Of a DNA stretch of 34,020 nucleotides, positions 17,175 through 25,222 are shown one piece after another. Source of the stretch: Clostridia bacterium. GTDB lineage: Bacteria; Bacillota; Clostridia; Oscillospirales; Acutalibacteraceae. Both the position numbers and the translations under genes were made by a program. The notes beneath the pieces were generated by a model. The model saw nothing but the letters and a program-made list of their open reading frames with translations. It had not been told where the DNA came from and did no database searches. Position 1 is the stretch's first letter. Each line of letters opens with the position of its first letter. The stretch spans positions 1-34,020 of the forward strand of contig JAFQKB010000015.1 of the NCBI GenBank assembly GCA_017397125.1, in the 5' to 3' direction.

Positions 17175-18012
17175 CGGAAAGGCCATCGCCGCCGCTCTGC
17201 GGGGCGAGATAGCCGCCGAGGTAGAGACCCTCAAGGCCCGGGGCATTACCCCCGGCCTGGCGGTCATTCTGGTGGGCGAGGACCCCGCCTCCCAGACCTA
17301 TGTACGCAACAAGCAAAAGGCCTGCCAGGAGGTAGGCTTTTACGCCGAGCAGATCGATCTGCCCGCCACCACCACCCAGGAGGAGCTGCTGGCGGTGGTG
17401 GACCGGCTCAACCACCGGGACGATATCCACGGCATTCTGTGCCAGTTGCCCCTGCCCCGGGGGCTGGACGACAGCGCGGTGATCGCCGCCATCTCCCCGG
17501 ATAAGGACGTGGACGCCTTTCACGCCGAGAACGTGGGCCACATCATGATCGGTGACCAGCGTTTTCTCCCCTGCACCCCCGCGGGTGTGATGGAGCTCAT
17601 CCACCGCAGCGGCATCTCGGTTGAGGGCAAGCACTGCGTGGTCATCGGCCGCAGCAACATCGTGGGCAAGCCCATGGCCATGCTGCTCTTACAGGAGAAC
17701 GGCACCGTCACCATCTGCCACTCCCGCACCAAGGGGCTGGCGGATATCTGCCGCCAGGCGGACATTCTGGTGGCCGCCGTGGGCCGGGCCAAATTCGTCA
17801 CCGCCGATATGGTCAAGGCGGGTGCCACCGTCATCGATGTGGGCATCAACCGGGACGAAAACGGCAAGCTCTGCGGCGACGTGGATTTTGCGGCGGTGGA
17901 GCCCATTGCCGGCGCCATCACCCCGGTGCCCGGCGGCGTCGGCCCCATGACCATCGCACTGCTGCTCAAGAACACCCTCACCGCTGCCAAGCAACAAAAC
18001 GGCGTAGAGTAA
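17158..18012 (+). CDS. folD: Bifunctional methylene-THF dehydrogenase/cyclohydrolase
   Basis: Interconverts 5,10-methylene-, methenyl- and 10-formyl-tetrahydrofolate for one-carbon metabolism. The 284-residue protein has the catalytic Tyr48/Lys52 pair in [10 protein letters not shown], the QLPLPRG segment, [12 protein letters not shown], and the NADP-binding [21 protein letters not shown] near the C-terminus completes the family pattern. The ATG at 17158 follows CAGGAGG, which lies inside the lgt reading frame; an upstream frame from 17113 is a shadow. It ends at a bidirectional terminator shared with the convergent kinase-like gene. Confidence 0.97.
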
Positions 18013-18021
18013 AAGACAGCA

Positions 18022-18062
18022 AAAGAGCCAGCGGACTTGAATTGGTCCGCTGGCTCTTTCTT
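18022..18062. terminator. Bidirectional terminator, folD / cytidylate kinase-like gene
   Basis: A perfect 15-bp stem pairs AAAGAGCCAGCGGAC (18022-18036) with 18045-18059 around an 8-base loop. T-rich ends lie on both strands. It separates two convergent genes. Confidence 0.93.
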
Positions 18063-18070
18063 GTCATTGT

Positions 18071-18694
18071 TTATTCCGGGAATCGCAGGTCCGCGTAGGC
18101 GGCGATGAGCTCCACCGTCTTGTCAATACCGGTGCGCAGGCTGTCCACCACCAGGTCGTAGCCCTCTGCACTGCCCCACCGACTGTCAGAATAGAAATTG
18201 TAATAGGCGGCGCGGCGCTTATCCGTCTTGACCATCTGATCGGCCGCCTTTTTCTCGGTCAGGTCGCTGTACTGCTCCACCAGACGCCGCACCCGGGCCT
18301 GTGGGTCCGCCTTGAGAAAGACCTTCACCACCTGCTCCCGCTCCCGCAGGGCATAGTCGGCGCAGCGGCCGATGATGACGCAGCTCTCCCCCTTGTCTGC
18401 CAGGGCCTGGATGGCCTCAAACTGGGCCAGAAACACCTTTTGGTGGATGGGCATATCGTACTGGCCCAGCATCACGCCGTGGTTGCCCAGGGACAGGGAA
18501 TACAGCAGGCTGCTGGTGGGCACCTCGTCGTACAACTCAAAATTCTCCGGTGCCAGACCGCTCTGCTGTGCCGCCAGACGCAGCAGCTCCCGGTCGTAAA
18601 AGGGTATGCCCAGCTTCTGCGCCAGCTTTTGGCCGATCTCCCGACCGCCGCTGCCGCACTGCCGCCCAATGGTGATGATGGTGCCCCGTTTCAT
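18071..18694 (-). CDS. Cytidylate kinase-like family protein
   Basis: A 207-residue P-loop protein of the Cytidylate_kin2 type. The N-terminus ITIGRQCGSGGREIGQKLA is its atypical P-loop. PFYDRELLRLAA and CVIIGRCADYALRE are family motifs, and a basic lid-like region follows (LTEKKAADQMVKTDKRRAAYY). It differs from the essential Cmk and its substrate is not established; such proteins are common as extra copies in Clostridia. The start at 18692-18694 is preceded by AGGGGGA. A promoter (TGTACA, 17 bases, TATACT) lies upstream, divergent from pfkA. Confidence 0.87.
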   Translation of the reverse strand: MKRGTIITIGRQCGSGGREIGQKLAQKLGIPFYDRELLRLAAQQSGLAPENFELYDEVPTSSLLYSLSLGNHGVMLGQYDMPIHQKVFLAQFEAIQALADKGESCVIIGRCADYALREREQVVKVFLKADPQARVRRLVEQYSDLTEKKAADQMVKTDKRRAAYYNFYSDSRWGSAEGYDLVVDSLRTGIDKTVELIAAYADLRFPE

Positions 18695-18727
18695 ACGCTG
18701 TCCCCCTAATAATGGATTTACAATATC

Positions 18728-18756
18728 AGTATAGCAGACTTTTCACCATTTGTACA
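18728..18756 (-). promoter_or_regulatory. Probable promoter of cytidylate kinase-like gene
   Basis: Minus strand TGTACA (18751-18756), 17-base spacer, TATACT (18728-18733). The -35 matches 4 of 6 consensus bases; the -10 is good. Confidence 0.6.
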
Positions 18757-18831
18757 GCCTTTCTGAACAAAATAATGCACACAAACAGCCTGGTATGCAA
18801 CAAATATCCATCGCTGTGCCATAAATTTCCA

Positions 18832-18860
18832 TTGTCATAGCCACTCTCTGGGGATAGAAT
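18832..18860 (+). promoter_or_regulatory. pfkA promoter
   Basis: TTGTCA (18832-18837), 17-base spacer, TAGAAT (18855-18860), followed by an AAAGGAG ribosome site before the pfkA ATG. Confidence 0.8.
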
Positions 18861-18908
18861 AGTATCCGTACAAGTTTGTTTTCACCCGTGGCAAAGGAGC
18901 GAAAAACT

Positions 18909-19871
18909 ATGAAAAAAATTGCTGTTTTAACCAGTGGCGGCGATGCCCCCGGTATGAACGCGGCGGTCCGTGCCGTAGTGCGTACTGCGCTCAACGCCGG
19001 CATCGAGGTATACGGTGTCATCCGTGGCTATAACGGCCTCATCCGGGACGAGCTGGTGCCCATGACCCTGCGCTCGGTCTCCAACATTCTGCAGCAGGGC
19101 GGTACCATGCTGTACACCGCCCGCAGCCCCGAATTCATGACCCTGGAGGGCCAGCAAAAGGCCGCCGAGGTCTGCCGCAAGCACGGCATCGAGGGCGTGG
19201 TGGTCTGCGGCGGCGACGGCTCCTTCCGCGGCGCCCAAAAGTTGTCCCAGCAGGGCATCCCCTGCATCGGCATCCCCTGCACCATCGACAACGACATCGG
19301 CTGCTGTGAGTACACCATCGGCTACGACACCGCCACCAACACCGTGGTGGATATGGTGGACAAGCTCCGCGACACCTGCCAGTCCCACGACCGCTGCAGC
19401 GTGGTGGAGATCATGGGCCGTCACGCCGGCTGGCTGACCCTGGGCTCCGGCATCGGCGTGGGCGCCACCAGCATCCTGGTGCCCGAGATCCCCTACGATT
19501 TCCAGAGAGACATCGTGGACCGGATGAAATACACCGCCTCTCTGGGCAAGCATCACTTCATCGTGATGGTGGCCGAGGGCATCGGCGACGTACAGCATCT
19601 GGCCGAGGACATCGAGGCCGCTACCGGCGTAGAGACCCGCGCCACCGTGCTGGGTCACGTGCAGCGCGGCGGTCGTCCCTCTGCCCGGGACCGCATCCTG
19701 GCCAGCCAGATGGGCCACTATGCCGCCCACCTGCTGATGGAGGGCAAGACCGAGCGCGTGGTCGCGGTCAACAACAACGTGCTGATGGACTTCGACATCG
19801 ACGAGGCCCTGGCCATGAAAAAGCCCTTCAAGTCCCATATGTTCCGTATGGCCGCCGAGATCTCCATCTGA
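18909..19871 (+). CDS. pfkA: ATP-dependent 6-phosphofructokinase
   Basis: Phosphorylates fructose-6-phosphate to fructose-1,6-bisphosphate, the committed step of glycolysis. The 320-residue protein has TSGGDAPGMNA at the N-terminus, GGDGS at residues 101-105, TIDND at 125-129 with catalytic Asp127, and the MGRHAGWL substrate segment. Gly104 in GGDGS is the ATP-type residue; PPi-dependent enzymes have Asp there. The ATG at 18909 (MKKIAVLTSGG) follows AAAGGAG; an in-frame start at 18876 is upstream of that site. It is monocistronic, closed by a strong terminator. Confidence 0.97.
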   Translation: MKKIAVLTSGGDAPGMNAAVRAVVRTALNAGIEVYGVIRGYNGLIRDELVPMTLRSVSNILQQGGTMLYTARSPEFMTLEGQQKAAEVCRKHGIEGVVVCGGDGSFRGAQKLSQQGIPCIGIPCTIDNDIGCCEYTIGYDTATNTVVDMVDKLRDTCQSHDRCSVVEIMGRHAGWLTLGSGIGVGATSILVPEIPYDFQRDIVDRMKYTASLGKHHFIVMVAEGIGDVQHLAEDIEAATGVETRATVLGHVQRGGRPSARDRILASQMGHYAAHLLMEGKTERVVAVNNNVLMDFDIDEALAMKKPFKSHMFRMAAEISI

Positions 19872-19878
19872 TTTTCTG

Positions 19879-19910
19879 CAACCGCCCACCCGCTGGGCGG
19901 TTGTTTTTTT
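19879..19910 (+). terminator. pfkA terminator
   Basis: A perfect 10-bp stem (CAACCGCCCA with TGGGCGGTTG, 19879-19888/19894-19903) is followed by seven T residues. Confidence 0.95.
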
Positions 19911-19930
19911 GTGTTTTTCCGTTTTTGTAT

Positions 19931-19996
19931 TTCAACCCACAGTTGAAAAACATCGTTTGACAAGTTATTGTCAGCAACACCCCTCCCTGCTATACT
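19931..19996 (+). promoter_or_regulatory. Promoter with two palindromes before the XRE regulator
   Basis: TTGTCA (19968-19973), 17-base spacer, TATACT (19991-19996). Two perfect inverted repeats overlap or precede the -35: TTCAAC-n5-GTTGAA (19931-19947) and TGACAA-n4-TTGTCA (19958-19973). The second includes the -35 itself, a good position for autorepression by the encoded HTH protein. The operator role is inferred. Confidence 0.7.
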
Positions 19997-20045
19997 GGAA
20001 TTGAGCTCAACAACAAGCGCGCGACCATATTTAGGAGGTATCCAA

Positions 20046-20828
20046 ATGAACATTGGAAATAAGATCAAAGAGTTGCGCAAGCAGCGCGGAATCACTCAAG
20101 AGCAGTTAGCAGACAGCATCGGTATTTCTTTCCAGGCTGTCAGTAAATGGGAAACCAATATCGCTCTTCCCGACATTACTCTGGCTCCTGTTTTGGCAAA
20201 CTTTTTCGGTGTATCTATGGACGAATTGTTCGATTTCAATCTTAATGAAATGGAATGTGCTGTCGAACGCATCACTGCGGAAGCTTATCAGTACAGAGAG
20301 AGCAACCCCACAGAGAGCAGACGAATACTAGAGGAGGGACTCAAAGAATATCCTGAAAACGATATTCTGCTGAACAACCTGCTTTATGTCCTGAATTATT
20401 CAGAAAAACCGGATGAAACAATCACTATCGCCAGTAAGTTGGTGGGAAAAACCTGCCACAACGAAGTAAAATACGATGCACTTCGATTCCTGGCCTACGC
20501 CTATAAGGCAAAAGGGGATATCGAAAGTGCCAAGGCCGCCATTGAACAGATTCCGGAAATATATTTCACCAAACTGACGGAAATTGCTTTTCTTTTATCC
20601 GGCGACGCCAAACGGGAAGCCGCCGAAAAGCAAAAATGGATCTCTTTTGAGAACCTGCTTCAAATGATGGAGAAGATCGCCGAACACTATGAAGAAAGTG
20701 GCGATAACGCCAAAGCAATTGAAGAGATCAAAAGAGCGATGGCTCTCATCCCCATCCTCGGCAATGACTGCTTCGATATGTATACAAACTTTTTCAACAA
20801 ACAGATTTCTCGTCTGAAAGGTAAATAA
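20046..20828 (+). CDS. XRE-family regulator with TPR-like helical C-terminus
   Basis: A 260-residue predicted regulator. Residues 1-64 are an XRE helix-turn-helix: KIKELRKQRGITQEQLADSIG, then SFQAVSKWETNIALPDI and LANFFGVSMDELF. The rest is a run of amphipathic helices (ESNPTESRRILEEGLKEYPEND, YKAKGDIESAKAAIEQIPE) resembling tetratricopeptide repeats, as in regulators that bind peptides or partner proteins. The ATG at 20046 has AGGAGG at 20033-20038; an upstream frame from 19968 crosses the promoter. Its base composition is clearly AT-richer than pfkA and ispDF, suggesting acquired DNA. The target is unknown; palindromes at its own promoter suggest autoregulation. Confidence 0.88.
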   Translation: MNIGNKIKELRKQRGITQEQLADSIGISFQAVSKWETNIALPDITLAPVLANFFGVSMDELFDFNLNEMECAVERITAEAYQYRESNPTESRRILEEGLKEYPENDILLNNLLYVLNYSEKPDETITIASKLVGKTCHNEVKYDALRFLAYAYKAKGDIESAKAAIEQIPEIYFTKLTEIAFLLSGDAKREAAEKQKWISFENLLQMMEKIAEHYEESGDNAKAIEEIKRAMALIPILGNDCFDMYTNFFNKQISRLKGK

Positions 20829-20864
20829 CAATCGTTATTATCATCACTCATCTCATTTTTAACG

Positions 20865-20903
20865 ATAGGGTTATCTCCTGTTTTGGGGATAACTCTATTT
20901 TTC
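20865..20903 (+). terminator. Terminator of the XRE regulator
   Basis: A 14-bp stem with wobbles pairs 20865-20878 (ATAGGGTTATCTCC) with 20885-20898 around TGTTTT. A T-rich tail follows. Confidence 0.85.
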
Positions 20904-20969
20904 GTATATAACTTGAAAAGCATAGGAAAAGATGATATAGTTAAAATATTCAATTGGAAGCGCGCCCCG

Positions 20970-20991
20970 CAAGGCCCCCTTGCCTAAAGGG
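20970..20991 (+). repeat. Outer inverted repeat, left
   Basis: 22 bases beginning CAAGGCCCCCTTGCC, exact reverse complement of 21517-21538. It also folds on itself with the following bases (GCCCCCTT with AAGGGGGC). Confidence 0.95.
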
Positions 20992-20997
20992 GGCTGG

Positions 20998-21012
20998 CAC
21001 AGCGAAGCTGTG
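20998..21012 (+). repeat. Left-arm hairpin
   Basis: CACAGC-GAA-GCTGTG, a perfect 6-bp stem with a three-base loop. It occupies the place held by a different stem (GTCAAAACC-TCC-GGTTTTGAC) in the right arm. Confidence 0.85.
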
Positions 21013-21026
21013 ACTGGGGGATACTT
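21012..21026 (+). repeat. Inner inverted repeat, left
   Basis: GACTGGGGGATACTT, an exact reverse complement of 21413-21427, directly before the DUF559 gene's leader. Confidence 0.93.
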
Positions 21027-21051
21027 CTAAATAATTCGGGAGGGATAACTT

Positions 21052-21414
21052 ACGGATCGGAAACACAACTCTGCCCTGACACGCAATGCTAAAATGCTCC
21101 GAAAAAATATGACCAAAGAAGAACGTCATTTGTGGTACGATTTCTTGCGTTCCTATCCCATCCGCTTTCTTCGTCAAAAGGTAATTGACAATTATATTGT
21201 CGATTTCTATTGTCACGAAGCACGAATCATTATTGAATTGGATGGCTCACAGCATTACCAAACCAAAGAAATGATGAAAGATAAAACTCGCACCGAAAAA
21301 ATCGAGAATCGAGATTTGACCGTTATTCGCATACCAAACAATGAAATCCACAATAACTTCAAAGGCGTCTGCGAATACATCGATATACAGGTAAAAACAG
21401 CCTTACAGCGTTAA
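21052..21414 (+). CDS. DUF559 endonuclease-like protein, start codon apparently ACG
   Basis: Vsr-like restriction-endonuclease-fold domain (DUF559). The family core is clear: LRKNMTKEERHLWYDFLR, the PIRFLRQKVIDNYIVDFYC segment with a conserved Asp, and IIELDGSQH with the Glu/Asp/His cluster, then VIRIPNNEI. The usual start codons give only a start at 21094 (106 residues) with no ribosome site. Read upstream in the same frame, the protein continues with TDRKHNSALTRNAK, which resembles the normal family N-terminus. An SD-like GGGAGGG (21038-21044) sits 7 bases before an ACG at 21052. The ancestral ATG may have mutated to ACG, leaving a weakly translated or dead gene. The function is unproven. 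Confidence 0.72.
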   Translation, partial: TDRKHNSALTRNAKMLRKNMTKEERHLWYDFLRSYPIRFLRQKVIDNYIVDFYCHEARIIIELDGSQHYQTKEMMKDKTRTEKIENRDLTVIRIPNNEIHNNFKGVCEYIDIQVKTALQR

Positions 21415-21427
21415 GTATCCCCCAGTC
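21413..21427 (+). repeat. Inner inverted repeat, right
   Basis: AAGTATCCCCCAGTC, the complement of 21012-21026. Its first two bases are part of the DUF559 stop codon. Confidence 0.93.
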
Positions 21428-21512
21428 AAAACCTCCGGTTTTGACAGCTCGCTCGCCGCGAAGCGGCCCCCTTTTGTCCGCCATGCGGACATTTCCCCCG
21501 CATGCGGGGGAA
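21425..21512 (+). repeat. Right-arm hairpin cluster
   Basis: Four consecutive hairpins or palindromes: GTCAAAACC-TCC-GGTTTTGAC (21425-21445), CCGC-GAA-GCGG (21456-21466), TGTCCGC-CAT-GCGGACA (21475-21491), and a perfect 20-base palindrome at 21493-21512 (TTCCCCCGCA and its complement). The last two interrupt the CCCCCTTT/AGGCAAGG sequence that is continuous in the left arm. Confidence 0.88.
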
Positions 21513-21516
21513 TCTG

Positions 21517-21538
21517 CCCTTTAGGCAAGGGGGCCTTG
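21517..21538 (+). repeat. Outer inverted repeat, right
   Basis: 22 bases ending GGCAAGGGGGCCTTG, the exact reverse complement of 20970-20991. It ends 40 bases before the ispDF start. Confidence 0.95.
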
Positions 21539-21578
21539 ATGCGTTACCCCACACACATACGAAAGGAAGGTCATTCCT

Positions 21579-22748
21579 ATGCCTTATACCGTGATGATGG
21601 TGGCGGCCGCCGGCGGCTCCACCCGGATGGGACGACCCAAACAGCATATACTTCTGGGACAGCACCCGGTGCTGATCCATACGCTTATGGCCCTGCAGCA
21701 GGTGGATGCCATCGACGAGTTGCTGCTCATCGCCCGGGCGGAGGACACCGCCCATTTCGCCGCCCTGGCGGCTCAAGCGGGGGTGACCAAGCTGCGCACC
21801 GTGGTGGCCGGCGGCCACAGCCGCCAGCAGTCGGTGGCCAACGGCCTGGCGGCTCTGCCGGCAGAGACCACCCTGGTGGGGGTCCACGACGGCGCCCGCC
21901 CCCTGGTGGACCCGGCCACCGTCGCCGCCGTCATCCAGGCCGCCGCCCGCACCGGAGCCGCCGCCGTGGCGGTGCCGGTCAAGGACACCCTCAAGCGCAC
22001 CGACCACAGCGGCTACATCATCGATACCCCCGACCGGGCCAATCTGTGGCGGGTGCAGACCCCCCAGGTCTTTGACCGGGCGGCCCTGTGCGCCGCCATG
22101 GAGGCTGCCCAGGCAGCCGGCGTGGACTATACCGACGACTGCCAGCTGATGGAGGCCGCCGGCCGGCGGATACAGCTGGTACCCGGCCTGGATACCAATC
22201 TCAAGCTGACCACACCGGAGGATATCCGGCTGGCCCGGGCCATTCTCAACACACAAAAGGAGGCAGCCCCTATGCGCATCGGACACGGCTACGACGTACA
22301 CCGCCTGGTGGAGGACCGTCCTCTCATCCTGGGCGGGGTCACCATCCCCTACGAAAAGGGCCTCCTGGGTCACTCCGACGCCGACGTGCTCACCCATGCG
22401 GTGATGGACGCCCTGCTGGGTGCCGCCGCCCTGGGGGATATCGGCAAGCTGTTCCCGGACAACGACCCCGCCTATGCCGGGGCGGACAGCGTGGCGCTGC
22501 TGGACCGGGTGGTGGAGCGGATCACCGCCGAGGGCTACACCATCGGCAATATCGACGCCACCGTGCTGTGCCAGCGCCCCAAGCTGGCCCCCCACATCCC
22601 CCAGATGCGGGACAACCTGGCCGCCGCCTGCGGCGTGCCCGCTGCCCGGGTCAGCGTCAAGGCCACCACCGAGGAGGGCCTGGGCTTCACCGGCACCGGC
22701 GAGGGCATCGCCGCCCACTGCGTGTGTTTGCTCACCGCCGCAAACTGA
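21579..22748 (+). CDS. ispDF: Fused IspD-IspF isoprenoid enzyme
   Basis: Bifunctional enzyme of the MEP isoprenoid pathway: the cytidylyltransferase step (IspD) and the later cyclodiphosphate synthase step (IspF). Residues 1-230 are Isp[15 protein letters not shown] nucleotide-binding loop, VHDGARPLV, and QTPQVFD. Residues 232-389 are Isp[10 protein letters not shown] with metal-binding Asp and His, [29 protein letters not shown], and a C-terminal [17 protein letters not shown]. The domains are joined by a short linker (NTQKEAAP) whose DNA is a full Shine-Dalgarno sequence. The ATG at 21579 has GAAAGGAAGG upstream. No terminator separates it from the DUF559 element. Confidence 0.97.
22255..22274 (+). 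promoter_or_regulatory. Internal ribosome site and start for IspF inside ispDF
   Basis: AAAAGGAGG (22255-22263) sits 8 bases before an in-frame ATG at 22272 (residue 232, MRIGHGYDV), exactly where a free IspF would start. It probably allows separate IspF to be made, or is a relic of once-separate genes. Confidence 0.7.
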
Positions 22749-22803
22749 CAAAAGCCGCCGGCTTTTTCGCCGGCGCCCATCATACGAGCCGAAGCGACGG
22801 ATA

Positions 22804-22820
22804 GTGTCGTCGGTCGACAC
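22804..22820 (+). promoter_or_regulatory. Palindrome resembling degenerate Spo0A boxes upstream of spoIIA
   Basis: GTGTCG-n5-CGACAC is a perfect inverted repeat. Its halves, TGTCGTC and GTCGACA, differ from the 0A-box (TGTCGAA/TTCGACA) at two and one positions. It lies about 110 bases upstream of spoIIAA, before a terminator. A Spo0A role is a guess from context. Confidence 0.3.
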
Positions 22821-22845
22821 CACCGTTTTCGTGCCAAACGCGCGT

Positions 22846-22882
22846 AAAGCCTCTATCCTTATGGGTAGAGGCTTTTTCTTTG
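22846..22882 (+). terminator. ispDF terminator
   Basis: A 13-bp stem with one wobble pairs 22846-22858 with 22863-22875 (AAAGCCTCTA...TAGAGGCTTT) around TTAT, followed by TTCTTT. It separates ispDF from the spoIIA operon. I saw no confident sigma-A or sigma-H promoter between it and spoIIAA. Confidence 0.88.
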
Positions 22883-22930
22883 CATACCGTGGAAAAAGTT
22901 GGAAATACTATCCCGAAAGGATGTGACCTT

Positions 22931-23272
22931 ATGCAACTGGAACTGGAGCGGGAGGGCGGCACCCTCACCGCGCTCCTCATCGGCGAGTTGGATCACCACG
23001 CCGCCTCGGACATCCGCCGCCGCATCGACACGGCGGTGCTGTCCTGCCGGTGCAACCACCTACGGCTGGATCTGTCCCGGCTGTCCTTTATGGACTCCTC
23101 CGGCATCGGTCTGATCATGGGCCGCTACCGCCTGATGACCTCCATGGGCGGCCGGCTGACGGTGGAAAACGCCGGCGACCGGCTGGAGCGGATGATCCGG
23201 CTGGCGGGCCTGGACCGCCTGCCGGTCTGGAACGAAACACAAGAAAGGAATGATGCCTGTGAAACCCATTAA
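22931..23272 (+). CDS. spoIIAA: Anti-sigma-F factor antagonist
   Basis: STAS-domain protein that, when unphosphorylated, removes the anti-sigma factor SpoIIAB from sigma-F in the forespore. The 113-residue sequence carries the conserved phosphorylation site in FMDSSGIGLIMGRY, matching the regulatory Ser of SpoIIAA. The ATG at 22931 (MQLELEREGG) follows AAAGGA; the frame extends to 22880 without a better start. It is the first gene of a three-gene operon in the canonical order, overlapping spoIIAB by 14 bases if the GTG start of that gene is used. Confidence 0.95.
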   Translation: MQLELEREGGTLTALLIGELDHHAASDIRRRIDTAVLSCRCNHLRLDLSRLSFMDSSGIGLIMGRYRLMTSMGGRLTVENAGDRLERMIRLAGLDRLPVWNETQERNDACETH

Positions 23273-23702
23273 CGAAATGAAGATGACCTTCCTCAGCCGG
23301 TCCGCCAACGAGGGCTTTGCCCGGGCGGCGGTGGCGGCCTTTGCCGCCCAGCTGGACCCGGCGGTGGACGAGCTGGCGGACCTGCGCACCGCCGTATCCG
23401 AGGCGGTGACCAACGCCATCGTCCACGCCTATCCCGACCGGCTGGGGCCGGTGACCCTCACCGTCAAGCTGTATGAAAACGGCTGTGTCAGCGTGCAGGT
23501 GCGGGACCGGGGCACCGGCATACCGGACGTGGCCCGGGCCATGGAGCCCCTGTACACCACCGGCGGCGAGGAGCGGTCGGGGCTGGGCTTTTCGGTGATG
23601 CAGTCCTTCACCGACCGGCTGCGGGTGCGCTCCGCCCCGGGTAAGGGCACCGCCGTCACCATGGAGAAATACATAGCGCCCCGGGTCAAGGGTCGGGTAT
23701 GA
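23259..23702 (+). CDS. spoIIAB: Anti-sigma-F factor and SpoIIAA kinase
   Basis: Serine kinase of the GHKL fold that holds sigma-F inactive and phosphorylates SpoIIAA. The N-box is TAVSEAVTNAIVHAY; G1 is VRDRGTGIPD; a G2-like region reads GGEERSGLGFSVMQSF. The GTG at 23259 (VKPINEMKMTF) is preferred because AAAGGA (23244-23249) lies 9 bases upstream, and the resulting start resembles known SpoIIAB. ATGs at 23250 and 23253 are too close to that site. It overlaps sigF by four bases, so the three proteins are made together. Confidence 0.95.
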   Translation: MKPINEMKMTFLSRSANEGFARAAVAAFAAQLDPAVDELADLRTAVSEAVTNAIVHAYPDRLGPVTLTVKLYENGCVSVQVRDRGTGIPDVARAMEPLYTTGGEERSGLGFSVMQSFTDRLRVRSAPGKGTAVTMEKYIAPRVKGRV

Positions 23703-24352
23703 GCCGGGACGATTTTATCTGCGAGAATATGGGGCTGGTGCACACCTGCGCCCGGCGGTTTGCCGGCCGGGGCGTGGAGTACGACGACCTGTTTCAGGCC
23801 GGATGTGTGGGGCTCATCAAGGCGGTGGACGGCTTTGATCCCCAGCGGGGGCTGTGCTTTTCCACCTATGCGGTGCCGTTGATATTGGGGGAGATCCGCC
23901 ATCTCTTCCGGGAGGGGGGCGCCATCAAGGTCAGCCGCTCCCTCAAGAGCCTCTCCTATCGGGCGGGCCGTGTCCGGGAGCAGCTCTCCGCCCAATATGG
24001 GCGAGAGCCCACGGTGGAGGAACTGGCCCGGGAGCTGGACGTGGAGCCGGCCCTGGCGGCCCAGGCGGTGTGCGTGGCGCTGCCGCCCCTGTCCCTGACC
24101 CGACAGGAGGAGGGCGAGGAGGGCCAGATCGACCTGCCCACCGACTCGCCGGAGGAGCAGATCACCGACCGGCTGGCTCTGCATCAGGTGCTGGAGCGGC
24201 TGGAGCCCCGGGACCGGCAGCTGATCCACCTGCGGTATCTGCAGCACCGCACCCAACAGGCCACCGCCGTCGCCCTGGGTATGACCCAGGTGCAGGTGTC
24301 CCGCCGGGAGCGGGTGCTGCTGCGTAGTCTGCGGGAGCATCTCTCCGGCTAG
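23699..24352 (+). CDS. sigF: RNA polymerase sigma-F factor
   Basis: Sporulation sigma factor that directs early forespore transcription. The 217-residue protein has region 2 (YDDLFQAGCVGLIKAVDGFDPQRG, FSTYAVPLILGEIRHLFRE), a region 3 helix (GREPTVEELARELDVE), and region 4 (ERLEPRDRQLIHLRYL, then the HTH QATAVALGMTQVQVSRRER). The ATG at 23699 overlaps the spoIIAB stop (ATGA). Its place after spoIIAA-spoIIAB identifies sigma-F rather than the related sigma-G. It is the clearest sign that the organism, or its recent ancestors, forms endospores. Confidence 0.96.
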   Translation: MSRDDFICENMGLVHTCARRFAGRGVEYDDLFQAGCVGLIKAVDGFDPQRGLCFSTYAVPLILGEIRHLFREGGAIKVSRSLKSLSYRAGRVREQLSAQYGREPTVEELARELDVEPALAAQAVCVALPPLSLTRQEEGEEGQIDLPTDSPEEQITDRLALHQVLERLEPRDRQLIHLRYLQHRTQQATAVALGMTQVQVSRRERVLLRSLREHLSG

Positions 24353-24357
24353 ATACC

Positions 24358-24399
24358 AAAAAAGGCACCCTCCGTCCAACAGGCGGAGAGTGCCTTTTT
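24358..24399. terminator. Bidirectional terminator, sigF / membrane protein gene
   Basis: GGCACCCTCCG (24364-24374) pairs with CGGAGAGTGCC (24384-24394) with one mismatch. It is flanked by A-run and T-run on the two sides. Confidence 0.9.
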
Positions 24400-24403
24400 C
24401 CAT

Positions 24404-25222
24404 TCATTCTTCTGTATTGCTGTCCTCCTCCAGAGCTGGCAAAAAATGCCGCAGCACCCGGCCGCTGCGGCCGGTGCCCCGCCCCCGGATATACACGTAG
24501 CCCAGGGCGCTGAACACCACCGCACCGATGAAATTGACGAACAGGTCCGCCATGGTGTCGTGCAGACCGATGTCCAGATAGCCCTCCACGCCCAGCTCCC
24601 GGCCGTTGACCGTCACCGAGGAGATCTCCTCCAGCGCCGTGACCGGCCCGGCGCCCAGCGAGGCGCTGAACACCGACCCAATGACCGTATCCTTTTGCAT
24701 ATCCGTGTGGAACAGCACGTCCATCCCGTACTCAAAAAACTCCCACAGCACGCCGATGGTCATGGAAAAGCAAAAGGCCACCAGCGCCACGTACAGAGGG
24801 GACAGCCGGAATTTCTCCTGCTTGTTGCGGGTGAGGATGTCGATGAGCGAAAAGCCCACCGCCGCACAGAGAAACCCGTTGACCGTGTGCAGCATGGTAT
24901 CCCAATAGGGATACTGCAGATAATAACTTTCTAATTCCCCCAATATCTCCGCCGCAAAGATAAACAGCAGGATCACCACCTCCATCACCGACGGAATGTC
25001 GATGCGCAGGCGCCGCTCCAAAGCAGAGGGAATCATAAACAAAACCAGCGCTAAACCACATATGAAAGCGCTTTCATACTCCTTTTGCAGGATGTTGAGC
25101 ACCAACATGGTGATGACGATCACCCGCAGCACCACGTATATGGCGGTCAAGCCGGGAGACCGGCGTGCCCCCAGGCGACTCTGCTCCCAAGACCCCCGGG
25201 CTGCCCGCCCGTTCTTTTTCAT
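24404..25222 (-). CDS. Polytopic membrane protein, DUF2238/YjdF-like
   Basis: A 272-residue inner-membrane protein of uncertain function. About six hydrophobic segments are visible, among them LTAIYVVLRVIVITMLVLNIL, FICGLALVLFMIPSAL, VMEVVILLFIFAAEILGE, MLHTVNGFLCAAVGFSLIDIL and ALVAFCFSMTIGVLWEFFEYGMD. DTMADLFVNFIGAVVFSALGY is the last. Conserved-looking polar residues inside helices (WDTMLH, LWEFFEYGMD, DTMADL) recall DUF2238 membrane proteins; the match is by memory only. The ATG at 25220-25222 follows AAAGGGG; a TTG at 25246 would start inside the preceding gene. It follows the lipid kinase gene by 13 bases. Confidence 0.7.
   Translation of the reverse strand: MKKNGRAARGSWEQSRLGARRSPGLTAIYVVLRVIVITMLVLNILQKEYESAFICGLALVLFMIPSALERRLRIDIPSVMEVVILLFIFAAEILGELESYYLQYPYWDTMLHTVNGFLCAAVGFSLIDILTRNKQEKFRLSPLYVALVAFCFSMTIGVLWEFFEYGMDVLFHTDMQKDTVIGSVFSASLGAGPVTALEEISSVTVNGRELGVEGYLDIGLHDTMADLFVNFIGAVVFSALGYVYIRGRGTGRSGRVLRHFLPALEEDSNTEE

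Follow-up and report, generated by a model that had tools for sequence, protein, structure and literature searches.

A compact unit at positions 20970-21538 of a clostridial contig raises the question of why a single nuclease-like gene should lie between perfect inverted repeats, and whether gene and repeats together form a mobile element. The window, by which we mean the whole analysed stretch of 34,020 nucleotides, is contig C83 of an 89-contig, 1.8-Mb assembly from the family Acutalibacteraceae. Within it, the unit sits between pfkA and ispDF and follows a helix-turn-helix gene (names read from the open reading frames, except for DUF559). The initial annotation described a 22-bp outer and a 15-bp inner inverted repeat, nested around an AT-rich gene for a DUF559-type protein in a GC-rich chromosome, and proposed either a miniature element moved by its own nuclease or a hairpin-processing system comparable to REP/RAYT pairs. 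Its repeats, its dispersed copies and its likeness to REP/RAYT are retained here, whereas the stem/stem/tail anatomy of the repeats and the triplex mirror that this anatomy contains had been missed.

The outer repeats (20970-20991 and 21517-21538) are complementary at 22 of 22 positions, and the inner repeats (21004-21026 and 21413-21435) extend over 23 nt at 87%, with the 15-bp perfect core inside them. Rather than being a nested pair, both repeats are the outer and inner parts of one ~55-bp arm pair, which looks like two repeats because a 68-bp insert (21449-21516) interrupts the right arm. A reading as nested miniature elements was dropped, since this insert accounts for the double repeat.

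Structurally, each arm is composed of a first stem (a 5ˊ pyrimidine strand and a 3ˊ purine strand), a short linker, a second stem and a purine tail. The left arm (20970-21026, plus strand) includes outer bases, stem 1 (GCCCCCTT at 20974-20981 and AAGGGGGC at 20987-20994), the linker, stem 2 (20998-21012) and the tail (TGGGGGAT at 21015-21022). A covariance model termed R1, built from 14 arms of which this is one, matches it at 20972-21025 with E=6.5e-16, and the DNA fold of the arm has a z-score of -4.25. The right arm is on the minus strand. Its inner part (21413-21448) contains the tail (21417-21424, which reads ATCCCCCA on the plus strand), stem 2 (21425-21445) and the foot of stem 1, and its outer part (21517-21538) contains the remainder of stem 1 and the outer bases. 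The insert between these parts, also on the minus strand, is a second class II triplex repeat. It represents another subfamily with the same stem/stem/tail plan (TTCCCCC...GGGGGAA...AAAGGGGG), in which stem 1 is at 21493-21512, stem 2 at 21475-21491 and the tail AAAGGGGG at 21467-21474. The same type of insert is located within stem 1 of arms at L176 and L179 (minus strand near 1306; congeners G104 and G107). Overall, three genomes have this subfamily inserted in arms of the first kind, and the insertions occupy two distinct genomic sites.

The GC content within the DUF559 gene is ~0.37 compared to 0.64-0.78 in ispDF, which agrees with the AT-rich gene noted initially, but the low GC content starts further upstream, across the helix-turn-helix gene at 19968-20828. 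This AT-rich gene adjoins the unit and is absent from the pfkA-ispD junction in four congeners. It might therefore have been acquired separately from the unit or jointly with it.

The tail is a mirror of the purine strand of stem 1, and is neither a direct nor an inverted copy of that strand. This mirror order matches a purine-motif intrastrand triplex in which stem 2 occupies the second loop. Because the tail mirrors the purine strand and also co-varies with it across families, we consider the arms to be class II intrastrand-triplex motifs of the PIT/BoxC/TM kind, whose folding into triplexes is predicted from anatomy and covariation. The arms have the class II order (pyrimidine-loop-purine-loop-third purine strand, with G.GC, A.AT or T.AT). 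They depart from the exact TMECO consensus with its 3-nt second loop, as the window arms carry a second-loop hairpin and have other stems.

Covariation was evaluated with arms that had been parsed by their two stems alone, which yielded 185 best matches in the flanks of 112 loci. A pyrimidine rule dropped 37 of these. The 148 arms that were kept represent 32 distinct stems, including a few that are misparsed. When the 32 distinct stems are scored against their own tails, allowing C-G, T-A or T-T at the best of seven offsets, the mean match is 0.820. Tails shuffled among stems and scored alike give 0.640 (sd 0.020), and none of 5000 shuffles reaches the value for the true combinations. A more specific count used 30 distinct stem/tail combinations, with the register for each linker type picked after inspecting the parsed arms, and with 15 arms (by stem or linker) and two duplicate loci left out. 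In this count, C faces G in 118 of 128 cases, and T faces A in 48 of 75 and T in another 18 (66 in total). At the stem foot of the same combinations, 12 of 13 G positions face T, a base that tolerates a C-G inversion in a triplex, and 15 of 16 C positions face G. Examples of co-changed stems and tails are CCTCTCTT with GGAGAGAT (L107), GCTTCCTC with TGAAGGAG (L112), and CCCTCCTT with GGGAGGAT (L041). Either A or T facing T-A pairs is permitted by the purine motif (PMC4666352) and differs from the requirement of a pyrimidine-motif triplex read on the other strand.

These scores bear on the possibility that the arms are mere terminators or G-quadruplex tracts, in which case the mirror would arise incidentally from purine richness. 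Stem-loops are often found near gene ends, the G-runs of BoxC could in principle form a quadruplex (PMC4666352), and tails scored in the reversed orientation give 0.678, slightly above the shuffled mean. However, the arms' own tails match far better than shuffled tails, families of the CTCTCCC/GAGAGGG type would not have enough G-runs to build a quadruplex within a single molecule, and NMR analysis of BoxC revealed a triplex, not a quadruplex (PMC4666352). The quadruplex reading was dropped on the basis of the NMR result and the G-poor families, and the explanation as a whole is highly improbable.

Repeats with the same class II strand order have been described previously as PIT, BoxC and TMECO elements (Holder 2015, PMC4666352; Hoyne and Maher 2000, cited there). 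BoxC was already recognized in E. coli in the 1990s and has no assigned function (PMC4666352). According to the available sections of that paper, BoxC oligonucleotides form stable triplexes in vitro, in-cell footprinting did not support a stable triplex, and BoxC was not found to be associated with mobile elements. Like PIT and BoxC, the arms occur in two types (assigned by eye in the window), often form an inverted pair, and are dispersed (PMC4666352). Unlike these elements, the clostridial arms have a hairpin of ~11-25 nt in place of the 3-nt second loop and can enclose a DUF559 gene. They represent new families of the PIT/BoxC kind. No enzyme for PIT/BoxC/TM repeats was found in print, and none is reported in the available sections of PMC4666352. 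Likewise, no paper connecting these repeats with DUF559 or YcjD was among the matches listed from open-licence PMC articles, a collection that holds no preprints and thus gives weak evidence of absence.

The enclosed gene (21049-21414, plus strand, with an open frame from 21049) encodes the DUF559-type protein recognized initially. Its product matches PF04480 with E=1.1e-28 and 99.7 bits, compared to a Pfam gathering cut-off of 20.6, and this is its only Pfam match; the HUH Y1 domain PF01797 is not present. The stop codon ends 2 bp before the right-arm tail. At the other end of the gene, a start at the first ATG (21094) would truncate the conserved N-terminus. An ACG is present at 21052, 14 codons before this ATG, at a position where six of the 12 relatives printed have ATG and three others (L036, L038 and L040) also have ACG, such that ACG recurs here among the nearest relatives of the window copy.

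Against the YcjD equivalog model NF007294, the window protein scores 72.7 bits, which is below the cut-off of 218, compared to 267.8 for E. coli YcjD. The nearest solved structures by sequence are 3hrl (endonuclease-like, E 4e-17) and 3r3p (a mobile intron protein that we take to be I-Bth0305I, E 0.003), and further structure matches at E>=0.08 were taken for chance. Residues E25, D52, E63, D65 and H69 are invariant in 49 aligned sequences. The nuclease has a distant sequence kinship with Vsr and with EDxHD homing endonucleases as represented by 3r3p, and YcjD has been grouped earlier with Vsr in the PD-(D/E)XK superfamily (PMC1189080). Unlike the situation for those enzymes, no intron or intein was recognized at the locus, and triplex arms flank the gene.

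Given this kinship, the gene might instead encode a Vsr-like mismatch or defence nuclease that is flanked by repeats by chance. A Caulobacter DUF559 protein, VsrA, has been assigned a mismatch-repair-like role (PMC12907096). In addition, one Deinococcus protein matches the Vsr family TIGR00632 at 1e-4, below the family cut-off, and the window protein has weak PADLOC matches, the best at 5e-7. On the other hand, the window protein has no match to TIGR00632 at E<=0.001, no methyltransferase was recognized by eye among the open reading frames of 18000-24500 near the gene, and this explanation leaves the cognate arms unaccounted for. We give it very little credence.

The linkage of gene and arms is general among clostridial loci. 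There are 110 non-duplicate DUF559 loci, and 103 of them have enough flanking sequence for analysis. Of these 103, 102 have a triplex motif no more than 250 bp from the gene, and 76 have motifs on both sides, whereas shifted windows taken from the same loci contain a motif in 18 of 253 cases. The sole exception, L035, is a weak partial DUF559 match, and after thinning of similar genes the motif is still found within 250 bp at 98 of 99 loci. A best orientation could be assigned on both sides at 69 of the thinned loci, and the motifs point inward on both sides at 58 of these (in/in) and outward on both at two (out/out). Furthermore, the best inverted match between the two flanks scores at least 30 at 81 of 105 loci compared to one of 263 shifted windows; these 105 are the loci with enough flank among the 112, including two duplicates (L008 of L002, and L018 of L038). 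Protein similarity also correlates with arm similarity (Mantel r 0.78 for left arms and 0.64 for right arms; 0 of 2000 permutations), although this would be expected from common descent of the linked unit alone.

Outside this set, 29 further DUF559 loci were listed for the phylum. The two strong matches carry arms, whereas among the 27 weaker matches a clear array near the gene was seen by eye in L254 only. Reading frames longer than 1000 residues contain 11 of the 29. The idea that all DUF559 genes are linked to arms was rejected, because distant or fused homologues are mostly without them, and the link thus belongs to the short YcjD-like branch. DUF559 genes lacking such arms had been named at the outset as an observation that would speak against the proposal. 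Such genes do exist, but only as distant or fused homologues.

Within the host genome there are five DUF559 genes, and the window copy shares 43-61% identity with the remaining four. Repeats of one plan adjoin all five. A repeat finder reports inverted arms at four of these genes, with the match at L003 obtained by alignment alone, and the tail faces the gene at four of the five loci, whereas L003 has both orientations on both sides. Using R1, at least 54 arms are detected in this genome at E<=0.05, which is a lower bound because the model misses CTCTCCC-type arms that a pattern finds. By our reading, five of the 54 flank DUF559 genes. Nine gene-less inverted pairs are arranged tail to tail, and at least 11 of the 54 arms are within 200 bp of a contig end, as is expected of repeats that break assemblies. 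The dispersed copies predicted initially, both with and without the gene, are therefore present.

This distribution resembles that of REP/REPIN sequences and their RAYT (TnpA-REP) enzymes, and the analogy with REP/RAYT drawn in the initial annotation is apt as a matter of function. In both systems, short palindromic repeats occur as solo copies and as gene-less inverted pairs, and one cognate single-domain nuclease gene is flanked by the repeats. The systems differ in that the nuclease is of the PD-(D/E)XK type (DUF559) instead of HUH Y1, and in that the ends carry a mirror third strand. Also, no GTAG/CGTC tags are apparent in the arms printed. MITEs are similar in having gene-less pairs with inverted ends, but the unit carries no transposase of a known class, and no target duplication was found.

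Across 100 genomes of the family, drawn from 99 genera, DUF559 matches are patchy and occur in 33. Arms are present in 25 of the 26 genomes with a strong DUF559 match, compared to 21 of the 74 without (Fisher p=5e-10, with kinship ignored), and the counts are 24 of 25 and 21 of 74 when the window genome is left out. For this comparison, the seven genomes that have weak DUF559 matches only were counted as negative, and arm counts are lower bounds due to stricter filters. The one DUF559-positive genome without an R1 arm match is G057. Ten DUF559-negative genomes hold at least five arms, five of the ten are at least 98% complete, and two of the ten (G018 and G087) have weak DUF559 matches that were counted as negative. 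G034 (98% complete, 26 arms) and G074 (100% complete, 18 arms) are without a DUF559 match, which might reflect another enzyme or a lost gene.

The existence of genomes that have arms but no DUF559 gene is compatible with a scheme in which some other enzyme, such as a Y1/HUH transposase, moves the repeats, and DUF559 is either carried along as cargo or acts as a selfish homing gene with the repeats as its insertion sites. The distant relationship of DUF559 to the mobile-intron protein 3r3p, and the insertion of one repeat family in the arms of another, could be viewed in the same way. However, the Y1 transposase, which is the family examined and is found in 46 of the 100 genomes, is not associated with arms (23 of 46 versus 23 of 54; Fisher p=0.55, rho 0.09), and it was dropped as the mover for this reason. 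Moreover, arm type follows DUF559 type, and arms occur at nearly every copy of the gene in Clostridia as well as at most loci sampled elsewhere. Such a passenger role for DUF559 is thus improbable.

Comparisons with congeners reveal sites that do not have the unit. The initial annotation had anticipated empty sites between pfkA and ispDF in relatives, and this was borne out in four of nine congeners. Specifically, ispD is present in all nine congeners searched, and pfkA directly precedes it in G027, G102, G104 and G107, where the junction contains neither the helix-turn-helix gene nor DUF559. The remaining five have other genes upstream of ispD. By eye, the junction of G104 holds a lone arm-like repeat. 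None of the nine yielded a match to the left flank of the window unit. A second informative site is that of a gene-less pair located beside a gene that is presumably pyrK, and this site is present in eight of the nine congeners. The element is absent in four (G105, G101, G103 and G027), a short scar-like stretch is present in one (G106), and other pairs are found in three (G102, G104 and G107). No target-site duplication or target consensus was found, with the empty sites at the two loci being too diverged to give exact ends, and no excision, insertion or cleavage events were seen.

Beyond Clostridia, we examined 18 DUF559 loci, comprising E. coli K-12 and 17 plasmid-collection records that were hand-picked from 34 for diversity and hence are not a random sample; gene bounds at six of the 17 are estimates. 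The loci represent E. coli (ycjD), Deinococcus, cyanobacteria and other proteobacteria. A short-loop motif is located within 250 bp of the gene at 14 of the 18, compared to three of 171 control 850-bp windows from three plasmids. The strong cases include Deinococcus L117 and L120 and Sphingomonas L123. Three BoxC sequences at 10/10 are present at the S. meliloti locus (L207), and motifs at 12/12 at the Pseudanabaena locus (L209), whereas the motif at L126 is weak. No short-loop motif is found at L122, L125, L206 or L208, although L122 has motifs with a 12-nt loop. BoxC-type motifs with a 3-nt loop occur in E. coli, S. meliloti and at some of the cyanobacterial loci. In Deinococcus L117 and L120 the tails point outward, which is opposite to the inward orientation in most Clostridia. 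No relatives of the YcjD and Deinococcus queries were found in viral contigs.

Two loci outside Clostridia have unusual arrangements. In Pseudanabaena galeata (L209, 801-1073), the DUF559 domain and the 12-triplet arms are contained within one long annotated open reading frame, resembling an in-frame insertion of the element into a gene. On a Photobacterium plasmid (L127, 1151-1844), alternating triplex motifs recur approximately every 150 bp downstream of DUF559.

In E. coli K-12, the ycjD gene is annotated as DUF559. A full BoxC is located 167 bp downstream, and a shortened BoxC can be recognized by eye at the gene end. Given 23 BoxC sequences in MG1655 (PMC4666352), the chance of finding one within 250 bp of ycjD is ~0.4%. 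In E. coli HYM1, this second BoxC is nearly complete, with nine of 10 triplets, and runs into the 3ˊ end of a ycjD gene that is 12 nt longer, in agreement with a 12-nt difference described for ST69 and ST182 (PMC12817139). The 3ˊ end of the K-12 gene is partly duplicated downstream (L115, 11321-11465; 39 nt, 90%), and this copy may be what is left of a second DUF559 unit.

Among 5426 E. coli genomes, 3362 carry at least 80% of the 831-bp ycjD region, which is found between sapF and fabI in the rows listed. In four strains that lack ycjD, the position upstream of fabI is instead occupied by an efflux gene and a regulator (the eef operon), and consequently these are not clean empty sites. Among the rows listed, ycjD-less E. 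coli tend to have fewer further BoxC-like places, in a sample that is confounded by phylogroup. The prevalence of ycjD in this species, along with the description of RAYT enzymes as domesticated (PMC8266576), would be consistent with a domesticated pair, wherein DUF559, as a host enzyme, would not move the arms but would trim or resolve the structures formed at these genomic repeats, as part of replication or repair housekeeping. Several observations from Clostridia argue against this possibility, including the patchy presence of DUF559 in the family, the five diverged copies in one genome, the placement of the gene between its own inverted arms, and the pfkA-ispD junctions that are without the unit in four congeners. 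For these reasons we consider domestication to be unlikely.

Our preferred explanation is that the unit is probably a REPIN-like single-gene mobile element, whose own Vsr-type DUF559 nuclease recognizes its triplex ends. Presumably, when the DNA becomes single-stranded in the cell, for example at a replication fork, each end would fold into a triplex hairpin. DUF559, as a Vsr-like PD-(D/E)XK nuclease, might then bind its cognate ends and nick at or near them. Transfer or loss would be completed by host replication and repair, and the element, the gene-less pairs and the solo arms could spread along with these processes. To our knowledge, no PD-(D/E)XK nuclease makes a covalent link to DNA, and strand joining would therefore come from the host. 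Since purine-motif triplexes cannot form in RNA (PMC4666352), the likely substrate is DNA.

More tentatively, short YcjD-like DUF559 proteins may constitute a separate class of mobile-element nucleases that read intrastrand triplex ends, and they could be the missing enzymes of PIT/BoxC-type repeats across bacteria, with ycjD as a tractable member. The linked nuclease gene offers a concrete candidate enzyme for BoxC-type repeats, which can be approached in E. coli K-12 through ycjD and BoxC. The protein could be a naturally occurring example of DNA triple-helix recognition, and the unit could represent a type of mobile element whose nuclease fold and end structure are unlike those of the transposases known to us.
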